Positions 16,654-26,785 of a DNA stretch of 37,727 bases are shown in pieces. The stretch is taken from assembly GCA_030647435.1 (NCBI GenBank), contig JAUSJX010000157.1, positions 1 through 37,727 of the forward strand, written 5' to 3'. This DNA is from Candidatus Rokuibacteriota bacterium. GTDB lineage: Bacteria > Methylomirabilota > Methylomirabilia > Rokubacteriales > CSP1-6. A program made the position numbers and the translations under genes. How positions within the stretch are numbered: position 1 is the first letter of the stretch; every line of letters begins with the position of its first letter. The notes beneath the pieces are model-generated. The model was not told the origin of the DNA, made no database searches, and worked only from the letters and a program-made list of their open reading frames with translations.

Positions 16654-17948
16654 TGCTCGAGTTCCTCTGGCTGCCCTTCCTCGCGTGCCTCGTGCTGACG
16701 GGCATCCACGTCTACCTCGGGCTCCACGTCCTGGCCCGCGGCGTCATCTTCGTGGACCTTGCGCTGGCACAGGTCGCGGCGCTCGGCATCACGATCGCCT
16801 TTCTCGCGGGGCATCCGATCCAGAGCGAGGCCGCCTACTGGTACGCGCTCGCCTTCACGGTGGCCGGCGCGGGGCTCTTCTCGCTGACGCGGGTCCACCG
16901 AGGGGCTATCCCCCAGGAGGCCATCATCGGGATCGTCTACGCGGTCTCGGCCGCGCTCACGGTGCTCGTCGTGGACCGCGCGCCTCAGGGCGCGGAGCAC
17001 ATCAAGCAGCTCCTCGTGGGTAGCATCCTGACCGTCTCCCCCGGTGAGGTGGGACGGCTCGCGCTTCTGTACGCCCTGCTCGGCGGGTTCCACGCGGCGA
17101 TCCGCCGGCCCCTCCTCGAGATCTCGTTCGACCCCGAGGGCGCCGCCGCGCGGGGCCGCGCCGTGCGCTGGTGGGACTTCGCCTTCTACCTGACCTTCGG
17201 CGTCGTGGTGACGAGCTCGGTGCGCGTGGCGGGCGTCCTGCTCGTATTCTCCTACCTGATCGTTCCCGCGGCCGTGGGCGCGCTGCTGTCAGGCTCGGTC
17301 ACGGGCCGCCTTGCCATCGGGTGGACCGTCGGCGCGATCGTGAGCACGCTCGGGCTCTGGGCGTCCTTCGCCTGGGACCTGCCGACGGGCGCCGCCGTGG
17401 TCGCGACCTTCGGCGCTTTCATGGCCGCCGTCGCGTGCGTGCTCGGCTTCCGGGCGCTCGCGCGGGCCGTGAAAGAGCGCGGCTGGGAAGCCCTGCGCGG
17501 CGTCGCCATCGTCGCGAGCGCGGCCGTCGGGCTCGCGGGGATCCTGCTCGCGGCCTTTCCCCGCATGGACCACCACTGGCTCGCTTGGATCGAGGAGGCG
17601 GTTCCAGGTGTCGAGCTCGTCTTTCTCACGCCGGGGGAGCGCCAGGCCTGGCGCGACAGCCGCGAGGCGCTCGAGCGCGGAATGGCCGAGCTCCGGCGGC
17701 TCAAGACTCTCGAGGTCGACGTCCAGTGGGGGCGGGCGAAGCTCACCCCGGAGCAGCAGGAGCGGCTGCGCCAGTTCCTCGCCTCCCGCGGCGAGATCAC
17801 GGCCGGCGACCGCTTCGTGCTGAAGACGCTCCGGAGTCGCGCGCGCGAGCGCCAGCGCGTCTGGCTCGGGCTGCCGCTCCTGATCCTCGGGGCGATCGCG
17901 GCGGGCCTGCTCGCATCGCGCGCGAGCCGGCGGGCGCCGGCACGGTAG
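16653..17948 (+). CDS. ABC-3 family metal permease with C-terminal extension
   Basis: A 431-residue membrane protein. The first 280 residues form the ZnuB/MntB-type permease, with about eight hydrophobic helices, GVIFVDLALAQVAALG early and VVVTSSVRVAGVLLVFSYLIVPAAVG in the middle. The usual family length is about 260-290. Beyond it are another hydrophobic segment (VAIVASAAVGLAGILLAAF), a helical soluble stretch of about 100 residues (starting near MDHHWLAWIEEAVPG, rich in Arg/Glu) and a last helix (VWLGLPLLILGAIAAGLLA). The extension is between two membrane spans and could cap the channel or bind metal. ATG overlaps the previous stop. No ATP-binding subunit gene is present on either side, so the ATPase must be encoded elsewhere or be missing. 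Confidence 0.9.
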   Translation: MLEFLWLPFLACLVLTGIHVYLGLHVLARGVIFVDLALAQVAALGITIAFLAGHPIQSEAAYWYALAFTVAGAGLFSLTRVHRGAIPQEAIIGIVYAVSAALTVLVVDRAPQGAEHIKQLLVGSILTVSPGEVGRLALLYALLGGFHAAIRRPLLEISFDPEGAAARGRAVRWWDFAFYLTFGVVVTSSVRVAGVLLVFSYLIVPAAVGALLSGSVTGRLAIGWTVGAIVSTLGLWASFAWDLPTGAAVVATFGAFMAAVACVLGFRALARAVKERGWEALRGVAIVASAAVGLAGILLAAFPRMDHHWLAWIEEAVPGVELVFLTPGERQAWRDSREALERGMAELRRLKTLEVDVQWGRAKLTPEQQERLRQFLASRGEITAGDRFVLKTLRSRARERQRVWLGLPLLILGAIAAGLLASRASRRAPAR

Positions 17949-18290
17949 GCTCCACGCGGGCGTCGCATGCGGTGACGGCCTGACCGCGAGCTAGGAGCCT
18001 GTCGGGGCCGCCACGAGGCCGAGGAGGCGCCCCCCCCAGCACATGGCGCAACACACGGCCGCCCGGGCGCGGCGAACCTCCTGCGCTGGCAAGAGCTTGC
18101 ACGCCGAGGCCAACTGACTGCGGATCGGATGCTCGGCCGACCAGGGGGCACGGCCCCCTCGGGGAAGCTGGGGTGAAACTGCACTACTTTCGCACTAAAA
18201 TAGTGTCGGCAACACGCCGAGGAACACCGTCGGCCCCCGGCCCGGTCTGATAGTGGCCTTTCTGTCGCCTACGCTCCAAAGTCACTCGCG
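17949..18290. other. Convergent intergenic region with a short GC hairpin
   Basis: About 340 bases between two genes that end towards each other. A 7-bp perfect stem, AGGGGGC-ACG-GCCCCCT, lies at 18143-18159; no T-run follows it. A weaker dyad (CACTA...TAGTG) is near 18182-18205. No gene is convincing. The hairpin may be a terminator for the permease transcript. Confidence 0.5.
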
Positions 18291-19658
18291 TTATCCGGGA
18301 GGCGTCGCTGGCGCTCGAACGCTAAACAGCCTCACGAGGAACGCGTCAATTACAGCGTTCAGCATCATCAAGTCGTCGTCGATGCTCATGACCGCGAATC
18401 GGATGTACGCCTCGGACTCCTTCTTGACTACGACCGCATTTGTGGCGAGCGTCCGCAGCTTCCAGAGACGCCAGTGCGATATCTTCAGCGGTCCCAGGAT
18501 TCTGATCATCGGCTCGGGAAACAATGCGTAGAACTTCGGGTCCTCCTCTCTCAGGATTGCGGCGATCTCTGCGTCCGTCTTTTGTGACTCCTCCGTCTCA
18601 CTAACGATGTAGTTTGGCAGCAGCATGGCTCGGTGTGCGGCGGCATGCCTCGCGTCGGCCATCGCCGTGATCCACTCGCGTATCGGCCCCTCGCGAATAT
18701 AAGCACGAAGCGCTGGGTCGCTTTCTCCGAGGGCTTTCCAGAGCGTAGCGCTCTCGATGCCGCAGTCTCTCTCTCGGAGGGCCAATTTCTTTGATTGATT
18801 CGCGATAAGCGCGAGATGCTCGAGCATGCCCCAGAGATAGAGGTAGAAATTCGTCATGTGGTAGCCGAGGAGCGTCCCGAACGCTCCCCAGAGGCCCCGC
18901 CGGTGGAAATAATCGAGCTGTAGCTCGTAGAACCGAACCATGTCGCGCGCGTACGCGAGAAGCGCATACCGATTGATCAGTGCGCTATGGACGTTGTCCC
19001 GGAGATCGGCTTCTAGATCTTGCCGCTTCGCCCAGTACCAGCTCGCCAGTCTCTTCTGCTTCCAGTGATTTATTTGGTAGTACACGTCGACGGTGAGCCG
19101 CCGCTCGGAGTCAACGGCCGACCAGAAAATCGAATGCCCGTGCGCACAGACTTCGATGACGTCGGTGAACTCGACGACGGGCACGATGCGAATGCGGTGG
19201 TGCTGAAGAAGGTCATAGCGTTGCCCGACAAGGACATCGTCGCCTGTCACGAGGCCGTCCGCTTGTGCGTCATCCGCCAGCGCGAGCAAAGATCGACGGC
19301 GCTGTTGCTCCGCAGAGTCGCCGCCAAGGGCCGCGCGCGCGGTCTCGGCCATATGGCTGTTCGCGACGAATCGCCCTGTCTCCCCACCATCCCGCACCTC
19401 TTCCAAATGTCCCCCTAGCAAAATCGTGAGGGGGTCCGAGACGTCGGCCGGCGCGACGCGGTCGATGGACCTAGGCCAGAGGAGTTTCACGTCGACAGGC
19501 CATTCGAGTGCACCAAGGTCTCGAATCAAGCGGAGAGCGCCGATGTTTTCCGACCCACCCAGCGCCGGCAGTGCGGTCGGGTCAACGAGGAATGAAAATA
19601 CCCTCGTTGGAAAGGTTGCGAACGTGTTGCCGGGCGTCCCACGACGGAACTTCGCCAC
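18291..19658 (-). CDS. Putative dual-nuclease protein: PIN-like domain plus HEPN-like domain
   Basis: A 455-residue protein starting at GTG 19658 with GGAAGGGGG just upstream. Residues about 15-170 fit a PIN-like fold: the opening strand FSFLVDPTAL with D26, then a helix-rich part. Then comes LLALADDAQADGLVTGDDVLV with D129/D130 and D140/D141 at the usual ‘asp–atA…LvT.D’ position, and a final strand RIVPVVEFTDVIE. The rest (about 190-455) is helical and contains R337-HAAA-H342 in ITAMADARHAAAHRAML. This is the R-x4-6-H motif of HEPN RNases, with the usual polar residue after Arg. HEPN and PIN RNases are toxins, defence effectors or RNA processors. The DNA looks less GC-rich than its neighbours. 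It has no antitoxin-like partner. Domain calls are by eye; an undescribed single domain is also possible. Confidence 0.6.
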   Translation of the reverse strand: MAKFRRGTPGNTFATFPTRVFSFLVDPTALPALGGSENIGALRLIRDLGALEWPVDVKLLWPRSIDRVAPADVSDPLTILLGGHLEEVRDGGETGRFVANSHMAETARAALGGDSAEQQRRRSLLALADDAQADGLVTGDDVLVGQRYDLLQHHRIRIVPVVEFTDVIEVCAHGHSIFWSAVDSERRLTVDVYYQINHWKQKRLASWYWAKRQDLEADLRDNVHSALINRYALLAYARDMVRFYELQLDYFHRRGLWGAFGTLLGYHMTNFYLYLWGMLEHLALIANQSKKLALRERDCGIESATLWKALGESDPALRAYIREGPIREWITAMADARHAAAHRAMLLPNYIVSETEESQKTDAEIAAILREEDPKFYALFPEPMIRILGPLKISHWRLWKLRTLATNAVVVKKESEAYIRFAVMSIDDDLMMLNAVIDAFLVRLFSVRAPATPPG

Positions 19659-19977
19659 AGAAGGGCCCCCTTCCGCCTAGGGTCTAGGGTTGGAACTATA
19701 CAGTGATGCGTCCATCCCGGCTTCTTCGCCACCTGCGTCTACTTGCGCCCCGGCGGCGGCACAGTGGGCGGAAGGTTGCTTGGAGATGAAGTGTGCCAAC
19801 ATCAACGAGGCTCCCTTCCCGCGCATAGCGCGACTTCTGCTTGCGCAAGATGCAAGTGAGAGGACGCAGCAGATCGGCCCCAGAGCGTGGATGATATAAA
19901 GCCCGATCCCACTCATGGCGCCGCGCGGCCCAGAGTCTTCCCTCCCGGCCGCGACGCTTCCCGTCCCACAGCCGCCC
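19659..19977. other. Intergenic upstream of the PIN/HEPN-like gene
   Basis: About 320 bases between the rhomboid stop and the PIN/HEPN-like start, both on the minus strand. A TATAGT at 19695-19700 (minus strand) could be a -10 box for the downstream gene; no clear -35 is seen. A minus-strand frame starting at 19916 would encode an 80-residue peptide with one hydrophobic stretch, but it has no ribosome-binding site and I do not call it. Confidence 0.35.
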
Positions 19978-20589
19978 TCAAAACCAGTGCGCGAGCCAGC
20001 GGTGCAGCGGCTGGAGCCCGCGGGGCGCAAGGAGGATGGCCACGGCGAAGCCGATGATCGCGCCTCCCAGGTGGCCTTCGTGACTGACGCCCCCCCGCTT
20101 ATTTTTCGTGATGAGGAAGATTGAGATAATCCCATAGCCCAGCATGAACACGGGGCCGGGAATCGGGATCGGCACGAAGACGAACGCAATCGAGGTGGTC
20201 GGATCGAGCACGACCGCCGCCATCATGATGCCAAACACGCTCCCGCTAGCCCCAAGACAGCGATACGTGGGATCGTCCTTGCGGAGGGCAAAGACCACGA
20301 GATCGGACCCGAGCCCGGCGGCCGCGTAGATCGCCAGGTATCGCGCGGACCCCACACCATTGAGGACCGTGGCCGAGAACGAGTAAAGCGCGAACATGTT
20401 GAACCCGAGGTGCAAGTAGCTCAGGTGCGCGAAGTGCGCGAGGAGCATGCCGAGGCCGTTCTCGCCACGGGCAACCTGATACGGCACGAACACGAACGCC
20501 TGGGCTTTCTGATCGCCGGCGCTCAAGGCCCGAAACCCGAAGAGGCTTACCACCACGTTCACGACGATGATCAGGAGCACGACGGTCAT
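19978..20589 (-). CDS. Rhomboid intramembrane serine protease
   Basis: A 203-residue, six-helix membrane protease. The catalytic set is complete: nucleophile S115 in GASGSVFG (GxSG), H173 in HEGHLGGAIIG, and the HLGFNMFAL element with N64 that helps form the oxyanion hole. Rhomboids cut transmembrane helices of partner proteins. The start ATG at 20589 overlaps the upstream stop (ATGA), which excludes the longer open frame. It is the last gene of a three-gene operon; the two upstream genes encode membrane proteins that are candidate substrates or partners. The length is minimal for a bacterial rhomboid with no added cytosolic domain. Confidence 0.93.
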   Translation of the reverse strand: MTVVLLIIVVNVVVSLFGFRALSAGDQKAQAFVFVPYQVARGENGLGMLLAHFAHLSYLHLGFNMFALYSFSATVLNGVGSARYLAIYAAAGLGSDLVVFALRKDDPTYRCLGASGSVFGIMMAAVVLDPTTSIAFVFVPIPIPGPVFMLGYGIISIFLITKNKRGGVSHEGHLGGAIIGFAVAILLAPRGLQPLHRWLAHWF

Positions 20590-21326
20590 GGCTTGCGCCT
20601 GAGAGTGCCCAGATAGCTCCGGAGCTGCTCCTCCTCGATCGAGTCGGGGCTCGCCGCCTCGATGAGCTCCTCGGCCCGGTTCGCGATCCGCGTAAGAATG
20701 TCCTCCTTGGCGTCCGCGGAGGCCGTGGCGCTGAGAATCTGCGCTCCGTCGGCCTGGAGTAGGTGTGAGCTCGTGATCTTGCGAACCAGATTCGGAAGGA
20801 AGGCTGGACATATCAGGATCTCGACGCTCACCCACGCGGAGTGAGCGATCGTCAGCGCGAACCGCTGGCGTTGCCACCAGAGGCACCCGATGGCGGTGAA
20901 GGCGGTGGGGTACAGGACGGCCGCCGTATAGACGACGGCGGCATTGGAACCCACGAGCAGAGTCAGCGCGGGCCCGACGACGAAGAGCAGCGCGAAACCA
21001 GCCGAGGCGAGGACGCGCGGGACCAGGAGCGACGCCCTGAGCCGCTCCACCGCCTGGATCGTGGACTCGAGCGCGGCGTCGGGCGCCCACGGTTGACCCC
21101 AGGTGGCCACCAGGACGCCCCGATCGGGGCGGACGAGAGGGCCAAACTCCAGGACCCGTCCTGCGAGTGTGAATGGATTCGCGCTGAAGATCGCCGCGAG
21201 CCGACCTCGGCCCGCCTCCACGAGGAGCAGCTCCCGGGGCGACAGAAGCTTCGCCGCGTCAAACACGTACAGCAGCGCGGCGACACACCAGATCGCGTAG
21301 TCGGCGCCCCTCGTCTGATCGAGCAC
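20586..21326 (-). CDS. Integral membrane protein, unknown
   Basis: A 246-residue protein starting at GTG 21326, 6 bases after the upstream stop. Hydrophobic helices lie at about 9-28 (YAIWCVAALLYVFDAAKLL), 105-127 (VLASAGFALLFVVGPALTLLVG), 130-150 and perhaps 160-178. The last 60 residues are helical and charged (RIANRAEELIEAASPDSIEEEQLRSYLGTLRRK), so the C-terminus is probably cytoplasmic. No enzymatic motif was recognised. Tight coupling to the rhomboid gene (four-base overlap) and to the DUF2167 gene implies a shared membrane function. Confidence 0.75.
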   Translation of the reverse strand: MLDQTRGADYAIWCVAALLYVFDAAKLLSPRELLLVEAGRGRLAAIFSANPFTLAGRVLEFGPLVRPDRGVLVATWGQPWAPDAALESTIQAVERLRASLLVPRVLASAGFALLFVVGPALTLLVGSNAAVVYTAAVLYPTAFTAIGCLWWQRQRFALTIAHSAWVSVEILICPAFLPNLVRKITSSHLLQADGAQILSATASADAKEDILTRIANRAEELIEAASPDSIEEEQLRSYLGTLRRKP

Positions 21327-21332
21327 CGCGAT

Positions 21333-22190
21333 CTAGCTCCGCCGGAACAACCTCCGGAAGAAGGCCGTCGCCGCGCCCCCGAAGGCGATCACACCGATGA
21401 CGAGAAGCTTCCAGAACGCCTTGATGAACCCGGTCTTCGTGGCCACGACCGCCGCGCCGCCCAGCACCAGCGCGGCCAGCCCGTACTCAGCGACGCGATC
21501 CCCCGCCTTGAACTCGGCGTAGCGGTCGCCGGAGACGAAGTCGAACCCACCGAGGGAGGTCTTGAAAACGGCGATGTCCCGGTCGAGATCCTGCGGCTCG
21601 GAGACGAGCGTTGCATTCATGACCCCTCGTCGGCCGAGGATCCGGATCGTGTAGTTCACAACGGATCCGCGCTCCCCGCGAAGCCGCACCCCCCACTCCA
21701 GGCGCCGGGACGCCGCGTCATAGTGAGGCGGAACGTGCCAGCCTTCCGTATGGAGCGCGGGGAGGCCCAGGCGCTTGCGCTCTTCGTTGCTGGGCCCATC
21801 ACTGTCCTGGAGTGATTTAAGCAGCGCGTTCGCATCCAGCTTCTCGTCATCCTTGACGTAGCCACTGTCGGCAAAGGAGAAGACGGCGAACCAGCCGGAG
21901 CGTTCGGACACCAGCGTGTAGTGGTTGTCGCGCCCAGGGTTCCGGTTGAGCTCGAGGAAGCGGCGGGTGTTCGGTCCATCGAGAAAGGCTTGACCGTCAG
22001 GAACCTTGATGGTCGCGGTGCTGCCAATCCGTCCCTCCGTCGGACCGCGCTGCCAGGCCAGCTCCCGGTACTCCCGCTCGACGTCCTCCTGGCTTCGGGG
22101 TTGCTGCGGTGAGGCCGGCAGCGCCATAAGGAGGACGCTGCCGAAGGCGGCGCACGCGAGAACACGAAGAGCCAGATCGTGACGGATCAT
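21333..22190 (-). CDS. DUF2167 family membrane-anchored protein
   Basis: A 285-residue protein with a signal peptide or anchor (about 7-28). The domain that follows has the DUF2167 hallmark GWFAVFSFADSGYVKDDEKLDANALLKSLQ and a beta-rich region VNYTIRILGRRGVMNATL. Two hydrophobic segments near the C-terminus (about 233-272) are followed by a basic tail (FFRRLFRRS). The ATG at 22190 has GGGAGG 5 bases upstream. DUF2167 proteins are exported and membrane-anchored with no established function. It heads the operon with the membrane protein and the rhomboid protease. Its terminal helices make it the most obvious rhomboid substrate, but that is inference. Confidence 0.85.
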   Translation of the reverse strand: MIRHDLALRVLACAAFGSVLLMALPASPQQPRSQEDVEREYRELAWQRGPTEGRIGSTATIKVPDGQAFLDGPNTRRFLELNRNPGRDNHYTLVSERSGWFAVFSFADSGYVKDDEKLDANALLKSLQDSDGPSNEERKRLGLPALHTEGWHVPPHYDAASRRLEWGVRLRGERGSVVNYTIRILGRRGVMNATLVSEPQDLDRDIAVFKTSLGGFDFVSGDRYAEFKAGDRVAEYGLAALVLGGAAVVATKTGFIKAFWKLLVIGVIAFGGAATAFFRRLFRRS

Positions 22191-22393
22191 GTGGCCTCCC
22201 TTCCGAGTCCTTTTCCGGGTAGAGCCAACGGGATCATAGCGCGGATGTCCCGTGGCATCGCGCGACGATCCTGTCAGACCGCGCGGGACAAGTCAAACCG
22301 GCAGGGAGTACCGCGATCACGCCGGCGCCGGGCTCCTTGCCGGGGCCGTCGATCAGGAGCGCGTTAGTCAGAACGGTGATGGCCATGGTGCCG

Positions 22394-23278
22394 TTATCGG
22401 GCGCTGGTGGCCTTCAGATTGACGTTAAGAAAGCGGACGAGGTCGGGAGTAAACACACTGAAGCCCTTGGGCCGGGTGAAGAGGAAGTGCCCGTTGTCTT
22501 CGAAGGCCGAGTAGAGGATGAACTGGACCGGATGCCCCTCCTTCTTGAGATCTTTCTCCAACTCGCGCCCCACATCGGGCTCGAGATTGAAGTCGTTCTT
22601 GGACCATAGAATCAGGACCGGCGCCGCGATCTTCTTGGCCGACTCGCGCCAGGCTCGGTCAAGGAGTGGCCACGACGTCTCACTGTTCCCTTCCCTCCAC
22701 CTAAAGCCCCCTGCCAGGCTAACCACGGCACGGAATCGAGGCTCGCGGGCGGCAGCGAGAATTGTGACGAGGCCGCCCACGGAATGGCCGCCGACGCCGA
22801 TCCTGTCCGGGTCGACGGAGGGTAATGTTCGCACATACTCGAATGCCGCGAGGAGGTCGTCGGCCTCGGCCTGGGCAGCCCGGAATACGTCTTCGGCCCC
22901 GGGGAGGAAGCCGCTCGTCCGTTGGAGCGAGTAGGTTTGTGTCGTGCCCTCGGATCCTCGGTATCCTCGACGCGCGACCCACAGCACCACGTAGCCCTCG
23001 CGGGCCAGCGCTTCGAGGTGGGAGCCGGGCGGCAACTGAGTCCATGGAGGCCCGCTGGCCACTTCCGCCGTCATCGAGCCGTGGGTATGGATGTAGGCGG
23101 GGAAGCGGCCTTCTCCCGGCGGGCGCGCCAGTACCCCCCGGATCTTAAGGCCCCCGCTCTGGAAGGTCACGGGTTCCTCCGAGAACTGCCCGCCCAGCTG
23201 CTGACCCGCGACCGTCAGCGTAGTGAGGCACACAAGACAGGCCGCCACGACCGGCGCCACTGCTCTCATCACTCGCAC
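22394..23278 (-). CDS. Secreted alpha/beta hydrolase (dienelactone hydrolase / S9-like)
   Basis: A 294-residue protein. A signal peptide (VRVMRAVAPVVAACLVCLTTLTVAG) precedes an alpha/beta hydrolase domain. This has the nucleophile elbow GGHSVGGLV, a strand ending PVLILWSKNDFN that supplies the Asp, and a late FEDNGHFLF with the catalytic His. HTHGSMTAEV holds the oxyanion loop. Substrate specificity cannot be read; ester, lactone or short peptide are possible. I chose GTG 23278 because a perfect AAGGAGG lies 5 bases before it. ATG 9 bases inside and an upstream open stretch are alternatives. It is a single gene, with about 200 non-coding bases to the DUF2167 operon downstream. Confidence 0.85.
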   Translation of the reverse strand: MRVMRAVAPVVAACLVCLTTLTVAGQQLGGQFSEEPVTFQSGGLKIRGVLARPPGEGRFPAYIHTHGSMTAEVASGPPWTQLPPGSHLEALAREGYVVLWVARRGYRGSEGTTQTYSLQRTSGFLPGAEDVFRAAQAEADDLLAAFEYVRTLPSVDPDRIGVGGHSVGGLVTILAAAREPRFRAVVSLAGGFRWREGNSETSWPLLDRAWRESAKKIAAPVLILWSKNDFNLEPDVGRELEKDLKKEGHPVQFILYSAFEDNGHFLFTRPKGFSVFTPDLVRFLNVNLKATSAR

Positions 23279-23703
23279 AAGCGCCTCCTTGACCGGAGCT
23301 GCACCTTCGCCTCGTGCATCCAGCCGGGATTTCCCAGATAAACCCATCGTCTCATCTCTCTCGTGTTGCTGATCGACCCGCACCGCTCTCTTCCTCGCCG
23401 GGCATCCGCCGCTCCATCGCCGCGCACCCCGCGTCACCCGGCACCTCGGCGCAAGGGATCAGCGCCGGCCACGACCACCCAGTCACCTCGCGCATCCGCG
23501 CCTTCGCGACGTTCACGCGCCGGACGTCGATCCCCTGGCCAAGCGTTGATGGCGATCACACCTTCTCACGAAGCCGCCACGTTCATCTTGGGCTTTGTGC
23601 TGATCATGTGCTAGGTGAGCCGGAGGTCGTCGCGACTGATGGGCTCGCGTGAGAAGGCTGTCTCTCGTTGAGACGGACCAAGCGCGCGGGAAAGAAGAAG
23701 CGC
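23279..23703. other. Intergenic, no gene recognised
   Basis: Between the hydrolase start and the tRNA-like element. Plus-strand open frames are low-complexity (Arg/Ser/Pro) without ribosome-binding sites. A 21-codon frame near 23549 ending FILGFVLIMC is hydrophobic but has no start signal. I see nothing else. Confidence 0.4.
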
Positions 23704-23779
23704 GCCACAAGTGCTTGACCTGCGGCGCCCCCGGGGCCCCGATTACGAATCAGTTGCTCTGCCACTGAGCTACCCCGGC
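23704..23779 (-). tRNA. tRNA-Thr(CGT)-like element, 3' half degenerate
   Basis: Read on the minus strand from 23779, the 5' half of a tRNA is clear: acceptor strand GCCGGGG, TA, D-arm GCTC-AGTGGCA-GAGC, and an anticodon arm with loop TTCGTAA, giving anticodon CGT (23745-23747). The 3' half does not fit. The anticodon stem closes with only four of five pairs, the expected GGTTCRA of the T-arm is GGTCAAG (one T short), and the 3' acceptor strand CCCCGGC is absent. In its place is a 9-bp hairpin (GCGCCGCAG / CTTGTGGCGC) followed by TTCTTCTTT, which looks like a terminator. It is probably a pseudo-tRNA or a site disrupted by recombination. Confidence 0.45.
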
Positions 23780-23826
23780 GAGTCCTGGCAACGTCCTCGA
23801 GCGGCACAGGCGAGTATAGCAAAACC

Positions 23827-24066
23827 CTACTCACGCACCAGTGCCTCGATCTGGTCGCGGTGCCCGCGGAAGCCGAGGAAGACGCGCTCGTCGATCACGA
23901 TCGTGGGGACTGCGCGCCGACCCGCCAGGCCGAATACCTCGGCGCTGGCATCGGGGTCGCGCCCGACATCGCGCACGTCCACGGCCGCGCCACGCGACTG
24001 GAAGAACGCCAGCGCGGCTTCGCCGTCGGCATTGCCCTCCGTGGTGACCAGCAGCACCTTCTTCAC
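23827..24066 (-). CDS. Glutaredoxin-fold protein lacking the active-site cysteines
   Basis: A 79-residue protein starting at GTG 24066. The pattern is that of a small glutaredoxin: VKKVLLVTTEGNADGEAALAFFQSRGAAVDVRDVGRDP, then the cis-Pro segment RRAVPTIVIDERVFLGFRGHRDQIEALV. The place of the CPxC motif reads TTEGNADG, and the protein has no cysteine at all. It cannot do dithiol redox chemistry and may bind glutathione or a partner protein. The open frame extends 51 codons upstream, but that part is not glutaredoxin-like and lies in the divergent promoter region of the sulfite dehydrogenase gene, so I exclude it. The ribosome-binding site is weak (GGGGCG). Confidence 0.65.
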   Translation of the reverse strand: MKKVLLVTTEGNADGEAALAFFQSRGAAVDVRDVGRDPDASAEVFGLAGRRAVPTIVIDERVFLGFRGHRDQIEALVRE

Positions 24067-24236
24067 GGCGCCCCAAAAATACAACCGCGCGCCCGCGTGC
24101 GGGTGGGCCGCGCTGTGACGGCCGGCTCCTTGTCCTCGTGTGAGCGCCCTTGTACAATCGCCGCAACCGCTGCCGCCCATGCGCACGGGGATGACGCAGC
24201 ACGGACAAACCGCCCGCACACACCGGGGAGGGCATC

Positions 24237-25376
24237 ATGGACCAGAGGCTCACACGTCGCGCGTTCGTGATCCACGTAGGCGCTGCAGCCGCGCTTTTGG
24301 GGCGCGTCGTCCCGGCCGCCGCTCAGACCTCGCCGGCGCCGGTGGCCGGCAAGGACAAGCTGATCGTGCGGAGCCCCCGTCCGATGAACCTCGAGACGCC
24401 GCTCAAGGACTTGGGCGCCGACATCACCCCGACCGATCTCTTCTTCGTCCGGAACAACTACGACGGGCCGGAGATCGACGCCAGCCAGTACGTGCTCAAG
24501 GTGGATGGAGAAGTGGACAACCCGCTGACCCTCCGCCTGGACGACCTCAAGCGGATGGAGCAGATCACCCAAACCATCACGCTCGAATGCGCGGGCAATG
24601 GGCGCAGCTTCTACTCTCCCAAGGCCCCCGGCCTTCAGTGGGAGAACGGCGCGGTGGGCACCGCCGTCTGGAAGGGGGTGCGGTTGTCCGACGTCCTGCG
24701 CCTGGCGCGCCCCCGTCCCGGCGCCTCCCACGTCGTGCCGGACGGCAATGACGCGCCCCCGACGCCTCAGGCGCCGGACTTCATCCGCAGCCACCCCATC
24801 TGGAAAGCGATGGAACCGCACACGATGATCGCCCTCGAGATGAACGGCCGGCCGCTGCCCCACCTCCACGGTGGGCCCGCGCGGTTGATCGTTCCCGGCT
24901 GGATCGGCTCGGCGTCGCTCAAGTGGTTGGTGCGGCTCACGCTGGCGGACAAGGAGTGGGACGGCGCATTCATGCAGCGGAGCTACCGCTCCCCACGGGT
25001 CGAGGATCCCAAGCAGACCTATTCGCTTCAGTCTCTCGAATGCAAGTCCCTGATCATGAGCCCGCTCGACGGCGCGAAGATGGCGGCCGGCGCGCAGATG
25101 ATCCAGGGGTACGCGTGGGCGGGAGAAGGCTCCGTCACCGGCGTGGATGTCTCCCTCGACGGCGGCAAGACGTGGGCGCCGGCCGCGCTGAGCGGCGCGG
25201 CGCACCGGTACGCCTGGCGCCGGTGGGAGTTGCCATGGACGGCGGCCGCCGGCGCGCACACCATCATGGCGCGGGCCACCGACTCGCTCGGCCGCGTGCA
25301 GCCCGGCGGCAAGGCGCGCGATCCGCAGGGCTACCGCTGGAACGTGATCCACGCCGTCCGGGTCGATGTGGCGTAG
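24237..25376 (+). CDS. Molybdopterin sulfite-dehydrogenase-like enzyme (SorA-like), Tat-exported
   Basis: A 379-residue oxidoreductase. The Tat signal has R7-R8 in TRRAFVIHVGAAAALLG and a likely cut after AAA. The Moco domain of the sulfite oxidase family has C118 in ITLECAGNGRSFY, which binds molybdenum, and PLPHLHGGPARLIVPGWIGSASLKWL. It is followed by the dimerisation (Ig-like) domain with GYAWAGEGSVTGVDVSLDGGKTW. It should oxidise sulfite to sulfate, or a related substrate, in the periplasm and pass electrons to a c-type cytochrome. The next gene starts inside its last codons and encodes one, as in SorAB enzymes. Family members with other substrates exist, so sulfite is likely but not proven. 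Confidence 0.88.
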   Translation: MDQRLTRRAFVIHVGAAAALLGRVVPAAAQTSPAPVAGKDKLIVRSPRPMNLETPLKDLGADITPTDLFFVRNNYDGPEIDASQYVLKVDGEVDNPLTLRLDDLKRMEQITQTITLECAGNGRSFYSPKAPGLQWENGAVGTAVWKGVRLSDVLRLARPRPGASHVVPDGNDAPPTPQAPDFIRSHPIWKAMEPHTMIALEMNGRPLPHLHGGPARLIVPGWIGSASLKWLVRLTLADKEWDGAFMQRSYRSPRVEDPKQTYSLQSLECKSLIMSPLDGAKMAAGAQMIQGYAWAGEGSVTGVDVSLDGGKTWAPAALSGAAHRYAWRRWELPWTAAAGAHTIMARATDSLGRVQPGGKARDPQGYRWNVIHAVRVDVA

Positions 25377-25729: not shown

Positions 25730-26785
25730 CTAGACGGCAGCCACCGAAGGCGGCGCGTCCACCACGGTCTGATAGTTCGGGTCACGCCTGAGCCGCCAGA
25801 TGAAAGCGTCCACGACGAAGTGGTGGATGTTGATGGTGGCGGTGACGAGCAGACCGCTCTGCACGATGCCGAAGCCCATGAGCCAGTACGTCTGCGGCCA
25901 GCGGTAGAAGAGCACCCAGCCGAGGATGAGGCACGTGACGTAGAAGGTCGCGGTGTGGAAGAACCACCCGTGGGCGTTCGACGCTCGCCGCTCCTGGTCC
26001 CTGATATGGAACACGCTCACGATGGCCAGGTACTGCAGCCCGTGGAACACCGTCGCCCAGACAAAGGCGTTGAAGTAGTTGAAGAGCGTCCACCAGATGG
26101 CGTTGGACACGATCACCGCCAGGCTGATCATCGGCAGAGCGAGCGAACGCCGTGAGCGGAGCCAGAGGAAGAGTGCGGCGGGAGCCGCGAGCGAGAGCAC
26201 GGTCAGCGTCTGCGCCACCGCCGTCCGCATCGGAAAGCCCGTGTAAAAACCGCGTGGCAGCACGAGGGCCATTCCGCCGTCGGGGTGGATGAGCGTCCAG
26301 AAGAACGGGACGAGGCAGGCCCAGAGGATCCACCGCTTGTCCGCGACTTCGAGGGCGCAGCCCGAGCGGTAGGCGTACATCACGCTCAGGCCGTAGGCCT
26401 GCCGCGAGTAGTGATAAGGCGACCACACGAGGTAAAGCGCGAAGAGGTAGCGCCCAAAGGGCTCGCCCACGACAAGCGCCGCCGTCACGACTGCGACGGC
26501 GATCACCGGGAAGGCCAGCGTCAGGAACGGCTAGGTCTTGACGGCGTCCGGCTTGGTGTACAGCCGCACCGTGGACGCCGCGAAGTGGGCCCAGTTCGAT
26601 ACTAGGATGGCCCACCAGAGGAAGGGATCGTTATCCGGGAAGTTGAACCCGCCCCAGTAGAGAATGCCGCCCGCGACCCAGCTCAGGAGCCCGCCGATCA
26701 GGAGGTAGTCGAAGGCGGGGCCCACGAGCATCTTGCCGAGCCGGACCGGGCTCGACGGGGTCATGGAAGCGGCGACGCCGTCCAT
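25730..26785 (-). pseudogene. Polytopic membrane protein gene interrupted by in-frame TAG
   Basis: From ATG 26785 the frame encodes about 84 residues with two membrane helices (FDYLLIGGLLSWVAGGILYWGG and PFLWWAILVSNWAHFAASTV), then meets TAG at 26533-26531. After it the same frame continues for 265 residues with about seven helices, many aromatics, and repeated His-containing motifs (SPYHYSRQAYGL, VSVFHIRDQE, HGWFFHTATFY, INIHHFVVDAF). Both halves are compositionally alike and in the same frame, so I read them as one gene with a nonsense codon rather than two genes. A GTG at 26506 could start a separate second part. His-rich heme- or metal-binding membrane enzymes look like this, but I do not recognise the family. 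Confidence 0.6.

Follow-up and report, generated by a model that had tools for sequence, protein, structure and literature searches.

A putative single-chain PIN-HEPN fusion protein encoded on a segment absent from sister genomes of a Candidatus Rokubacteria bacterium

A PIN domain and HEPN domains are combined in the eukaryotic endoribonuclease Swt1, in which the HEPN dyad, of the Abi2/Swt1 family, has lost its motif and the PIN domain acts as the nuclease; a bacterial defence protein has been proposed as the ancestor of Swt1 (PMC3710099). Most HEPN RNases are dimers that need no metal (PMC3710099; PMC13092281), and their published signature is an Rx4-6H motif, the arginine of which is followed by N, D or H, plus an acid in helix 2 (PMC3710099). 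Defence by a single protein that has no antitoxin has been described for a PIN protein (DS-3) and a HEPN protein (DS-11), both presumably autoinhibited: internal control has been suggested for DS-3, and a CBS domain is thought to restrain the HEPN domain of DS-11 (PMC13092281). Bacterial PIN-HEPN fusions are not described in the limited literature that we searched.

Here, we describe a gene from a soil/groundwater bacterium of the Candidatus Rokubacteria lineage, the product of which is reminiscent of Swt1 in carrying an N-terminal PIN-like domain followed by a C-terminal HEPN-like domain in one chain. Unlike Swt1, it is bacterial, its PIN-like domain lacks one acid, and a single HEPN domain was recognised, which lies nearer to Cthe_2314 and has an intact motif; the degenerate HEPN dyad of Swt1 was not found in it. 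The C-terminal half shares with the HEPN_Cthe2314 family (PF18730) an acidic residue and an Asn in helix 2, the pattern R-[N/H]-xxx-H and a helical C-terminal domain; however, it falls below the curated cut-off and is fused to a PIN-like domain, whereas the PF18730 members encountered here stand alone or beside nuclease genes. Similarly, the N-terminal half resembles PIN_3/VapC-type toxins (PF13470) in its first-strand Asp, VTGD motif and terminal strand-helix, but has Arg in place of the third acid, no antitoxin and a HEPN-like domain at its C-terminal side. DS-3 and DS-11 each correspond to only one of the two domains and are set beside the protein by description, not by sequence. The features are as follows, with coordinates in the window, i.e. 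the whole 37,727-nucleotide stretch of DNA that was analysed.

17949-24225, no strand: ~6.3-kb segment, absent between znuB and the molybdopterin oxidoreductase gene in sister genomes G001, G002 and G004
18291-19658, minus strand: PIN-HEPN fusion gene, GTG start at 19658, stop at 18291, 455 aa; homologue in G038 (JACQRS010000243.1)
19666-19674, minus strand: Shine-Dalgarno sequence GGAAGGGGG, a good match, 7 nt 5' of the GTG
19131-19604, minus strand: PIN-like domain, residues 19-176 (hhalign and hmmsearch against PIN_3, VIA-align); D26, D66 and D140 kept, third acid replaced by R121
19026-19130, minus strand: conserved linker, residues 177-211, with strongly conserved D191-x-YYQ and predicted strands
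18318-19025, minus strand: HEPN-like helical domain, residues 212-447 (profile matches; VIA-align to HepT 7bxo_F and HEPN 4nqf), with E280 and N287 in helix 2
18633-18650, minus strand: predicted HEPN catalytic motif R337-H-A-A-A-H342, RHAAAHR in the homologue, aligned to the RxxxxH of 13 HEPN proteins

The 455-residue ORF of a preliminary description of this DNA was recovered at the same coordinates, on the minus strand, and D26, D129/D130, D140/D141, R337 and H342 all occupy the positions given there. The same description had noted a GC content below that of the neighbours and no visible antitoxin, and both observations hold. The gene has a GC content of 59.9 % (window, 67 %) and a GC3 of 0.726, whereas most core neighbours reach 0.88-0.95; the ORFs beside it on the same strand are either short (30-70 aa) or out of frame. 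A VapBC-type toxin, or a type II toxin-antitoxin system more generally (VapBC, HEPN-MNT), was rejected because there is no adjacent antitoxin gene. Curated matches to the protein were found in none of Pfam, NCBIfam, PHROGs and PADLOC, and a PDB sequence search returned nothing relevant.

In G001, G002 and G004, the gene directly after znuB encodes a molybdopterin oxidoreductase; in the window, this gene starts at 24237. Because these three sister genomes join znuB to the next gene, positions 17949-24225 are extra here. In G003, which lacks the molybdopterin oxidoreductase gene, an F420-type oxidoreductase is encoded by the gene recognised next. Besides the PIN-HEPN protein, the segment encodes a rhomboid protein, whose gene flanks the PIN-HEPN gene on the side opposite to znuB, as well as a membrane protein, a DUF2167 protein and an alpha/beta hydrolase. 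The genes for the membrane protein and the DUF2167 protein are also found as a pair at other places in sister genomes (71 % DNA identity). The right edge (23741-24000) contains a glutaredoxin-like gene copy (92 %) together with the 5' half of tRNA-Thr(CGT), comprising its first ~39 bases and broken just past the anticodon; tRNA-Thr is intact at G000:C145 (L037, 2474-2548). The position just after the anticodon of a tRNA gene is a common place for element integration, and the right edge resembles a scar left where an element integrated or translocated at the anticodon loop of the tRNA. The idea that the gene was transferred is therefore supported, for the segment, by the sister genomes without it and by the low GC3. 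No gene within 17949-24225 could be recognised as coding for an integrase, an antitoxin or a known defence function, PADLOC returned neither a match nor a system model for the protein and the segment, and an Rfam search of 17900-24300 returned no match.

Other irregularities were seen in the same neighbourhood. Positions 22234-22301 are a ~68-bp dispersed short repeat with many 81-94 % copies in this genome and the sister genomes, while a 54-bp stretch just 3' of the PIN-HEPN gene (18227-18281), possibly an element end, is 91 % identical to G001:C77:3365-3417. A second variable spot lies at 25730-26700, where a membrane-protein gene is found at the same place in G002 and G004 and is missing in G001.

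A single relative of the protein was found, in another Candidatus Rokubacteria genome of the same family (G038), where the gene is truncated by the contig end (28 % identity over 238 residues, E value 5e-30 in a pairwise comparison). D26, E105, D140, F164-TDVIE, D191-x-YYQ and all seven residues of RHAAAHR are conserved between the two proteins, whereas the homologue has N, Q and P in place of D129, D130 and D141, respectively. Of the residues singled out in the preliminary description, D26, D140, R337 and H342 are thus kept in this one homologue and D129, D130 and D141 vary; D129/D130, which it had put forward as PIN acids, were rejected as catalytic residues on account of this lack of conservation.

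The family is therefore known from two members, one of them truncated. The search of genome contigs recovered the G038 homologue alone, profile searches covering ~390 relatives, 95 genomes from this phylum and 398 from a different one revealed no further member, and the plasmids, phages and viral contigs searched held no relative; two further phylum searches covered three genomes each. With 1/5 genomes of the genus and 2/95 of the phylum positive, the family is very rare, and its distribution is patchy and accessory. Matches at 0.008 in G063 and G064 were rejected as family members, as they are ordinary PIN_3 toxins. These same matches had been the first independent hint of a PIN domain in the protein.

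An Rx4H motif alone was rejected as evidence for a HEPN domain, as 72 % of shuffles of the protein carry one and 14 % carry R[NDH]xxxH; the motif is credible here because it is conserved, as RHAAAHR, in a homologue of only 28 % identity. H338 directly follows the arginine in both proteins, and the helix-2 acid is E280, an Asp in the homologue, aligned with the Asp of HEPN proteins; the Ex3[KR] form at helix 2 is absent. We collected 13 proteins from other genomes with the HEPN_Cthe2314 model and aligned them as a profile, to which the C-terminal half matched in hhalign with a probability of 89.6 % and a score of 47.5; none of 300 column shuffles scored above 22.7. In this match, RHAAAHR falls on RxxxxH, and E280 and N287 coincide with the Asp and Asn of helix 2. 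In hmmsearch with this profile, the protein and its homologue (16.1 and 17.2 bits, respectively) took ranks 1-2 of 2002 (best shuffle, 3.9). The N-terminal half, as a control, did not match the HEPN profile (cross-controls in both directions, 0.1-0.2 %). The homologue's sole Pfam match is HEPN_Cthe2314, below the cut-off (E value 0.053, 13.9 bits vs 27.1), and the protein itself did not match the curated model PF18730.

HEPN proteins of this type were also encountered beside nuclease genes in other genomes. In G073 (L028, 1090-2576), next to a transposase-like ORF, a PF18730 HEPN gene is followed after 9 nt by a PIN-like gene of its own; the PIN-like protein keeps IDTN, an E and VTMD motifs, and the pair may represent an unfused HEPN-PIN operon. 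Another PF18730 HEPN gene was found 3' of an HNH nuclease gene. Taken together, these cases indicate that partnership of PF18730-type HEPN proteins with PIN proteins and nucleases is not confined to the locus described here. LA2681-type HEPN proteins with long N-terminal parts are encoded at L032 (439-2004, with TPR) and L034 (1039-2622), and their helix-2 region resembles that of our protein.

The PIN match of the N-terminal half is local. Compared with ten PIN_3 proteins by hhalign, it extends over 41 columns around VTGD, from LLALADDAQADGLVTGDD to EFTDV (score 30.8, probability 46 %; shuffles ≤20.9, n=300; C-terminal half as control, 0.2 %), and against the PIN_3 profile the protein alone scored 17.8 bits (best shuffle, 8.8) and the homologue 1.5 bits. 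The alignment places D26 on the first-strand Asp and D140 on the VTGD Asp, and, judged by eye, D66 may be the second acid, as P62-x3-D66 resembles P-x3-E. The third acid is Asp in all ten PIN_3 proteins, R121 in our protein and Arg in the homologue, leaving three of the four PIN acids. As both family members have Arg at this position, a fully active PIN site is unlikely.

An AlphaFold model from the two-sequence alignment was discarded (pLDDT 36). A second, from a mixed alignment of the protein with PIN and HEPN proteins (pLDDT 62; ~76-89 in the PIN core around residues 115-160 and 70-90 over much of 200-340), displays PIN- and HEPN-like halves, a result that is partly circular. When solved chains were re-aligned to this model with VIA-align, the leading rows for residues 19-176 were PIN chains (Z ≤8.1, rmsd 3.7, 121 aligned), namely VapC-like proteins of P. 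furiosus and P. horikoshii, PRORP/HARP RNase P and Nmd4, bearing in mind the pLDDT of 62 and the PIN sequences in the alignment. Residues 219-441 returned HepT 7bxo_F at the top (Z 8.6, rmsd 3.5, 129/131), although HEPN sequences were in the alignment and helical bundles reach such Z scores by chance; HEPN 4nqf and Csm6 were also present, mixed with unrelated helical proteins. Foldseek of the model against the PDB and viral models returned nothing at E 0.001. The model is in line with the profiles, yet gives no independent evidence, given the PIN and HEPN sequences in its alignment. Profile comparisons with shuffle controls, and this partly circular model, nevertheless support the PIN-like and HEPN-like halves recognised in the preliminary description.

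We favour the reading, at a probability of roughly 0.55, that the gene product, encoded on a chromosomal segment absent from sister species, is a fusion of PIN and HEPN in one chain, in which the HEPN domain is the effector and the PIN domain an RNA-binding or regulatory module, the whole being internally restrained. Of the two options raised in the preliminary description, a dual RNase or an RNase with its own regulator, the latter is thus preferred, with HEPN as the RNase. In a dual RNase, the PIN metal site would be completed by another acid (E105, E117 or D141) and the HEPN site formed by Rx4H, the two cutting different RNAs or acting in sequence. D26, E105 and D140 are invariant in the two proteins and the PIN core is modelled with pLDDT 76-89 around residues 115-160; however, with the canonical third acid an Arg in both members, E117 and D141 not conserved, and the conserved E105 in a poorly modelled stretch, we consider a dual RNase doubtful. 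Less likely still, the HEPN half alone is real and the N-terminal half is some other alpha/beta domain with a VTGDD that is PIN-like by chance. The short span of the PIN match and the barely scoring N-terminal half of the homologue would fit this, but the PIN score lies above those of 300 shuffles, the start at strand-D26, followed by VTGD and then a strand and helix, is the order of a PIN domain, and the structural matches of this half are PIN proteins. Finally, a Swt1-like surveillance or processing enzyme, in which PIN and HEPN would bind and cut particular host transcripts, rather than phage RNA, in a housekeeping role, shares the N-to-C domain order of Swt1 (PMC3710099) and would suit a locus that lacks defence neighbours, but is the least probable reading given the patchy distribution, the location within an insertion and the fact that in Swt1 it is HEPN rather than PIN that is predicted inactive.

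Under the preferred reading of a HEPN RNase restrained within its own chain, we infer activity, dimerisation, autoinhibition, a trigger and a role in defence as follows. The HEPN domain, near to the Cthe_2314 HEPN, would be a dimeric, metal-independent endoRNase using R337-HAAA-H342, beside which E280 of helix 2 would sit. The PIN fold, with acids 1, 2 and 4 (D26, D66 and D140) and Arg at the third, would serve as an RNA-binding or regulatory module and not as a full second nuclease. As there is no antitoxin gene, control of the HEPN domain must be internal: the site would be held off within the chain or dimer until a trigger, e.g. phage infection or stress, and its release would lead to RNA cleavage and growth arrest. 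No defence genes lie near the PIN-HEPN gene, and its context lends no support to this biological role. A bolder version, which we regard as unlikely, is a one-gene immune effector in which the PIN domain, short of one catalytic acid, would be both RNA sensor and lock of the HEPN RNase, a mirror image of Swt1, with PIN-HEPN operons of related bacteria as the unfused precursors.

If this bacterial fusion does combine an intact HEPN domain with a damaged PIN domain, it would show a nuclease fold turning into a regulator, and the protein would be a candidate for single-gene RNase defence without an antitoxin.
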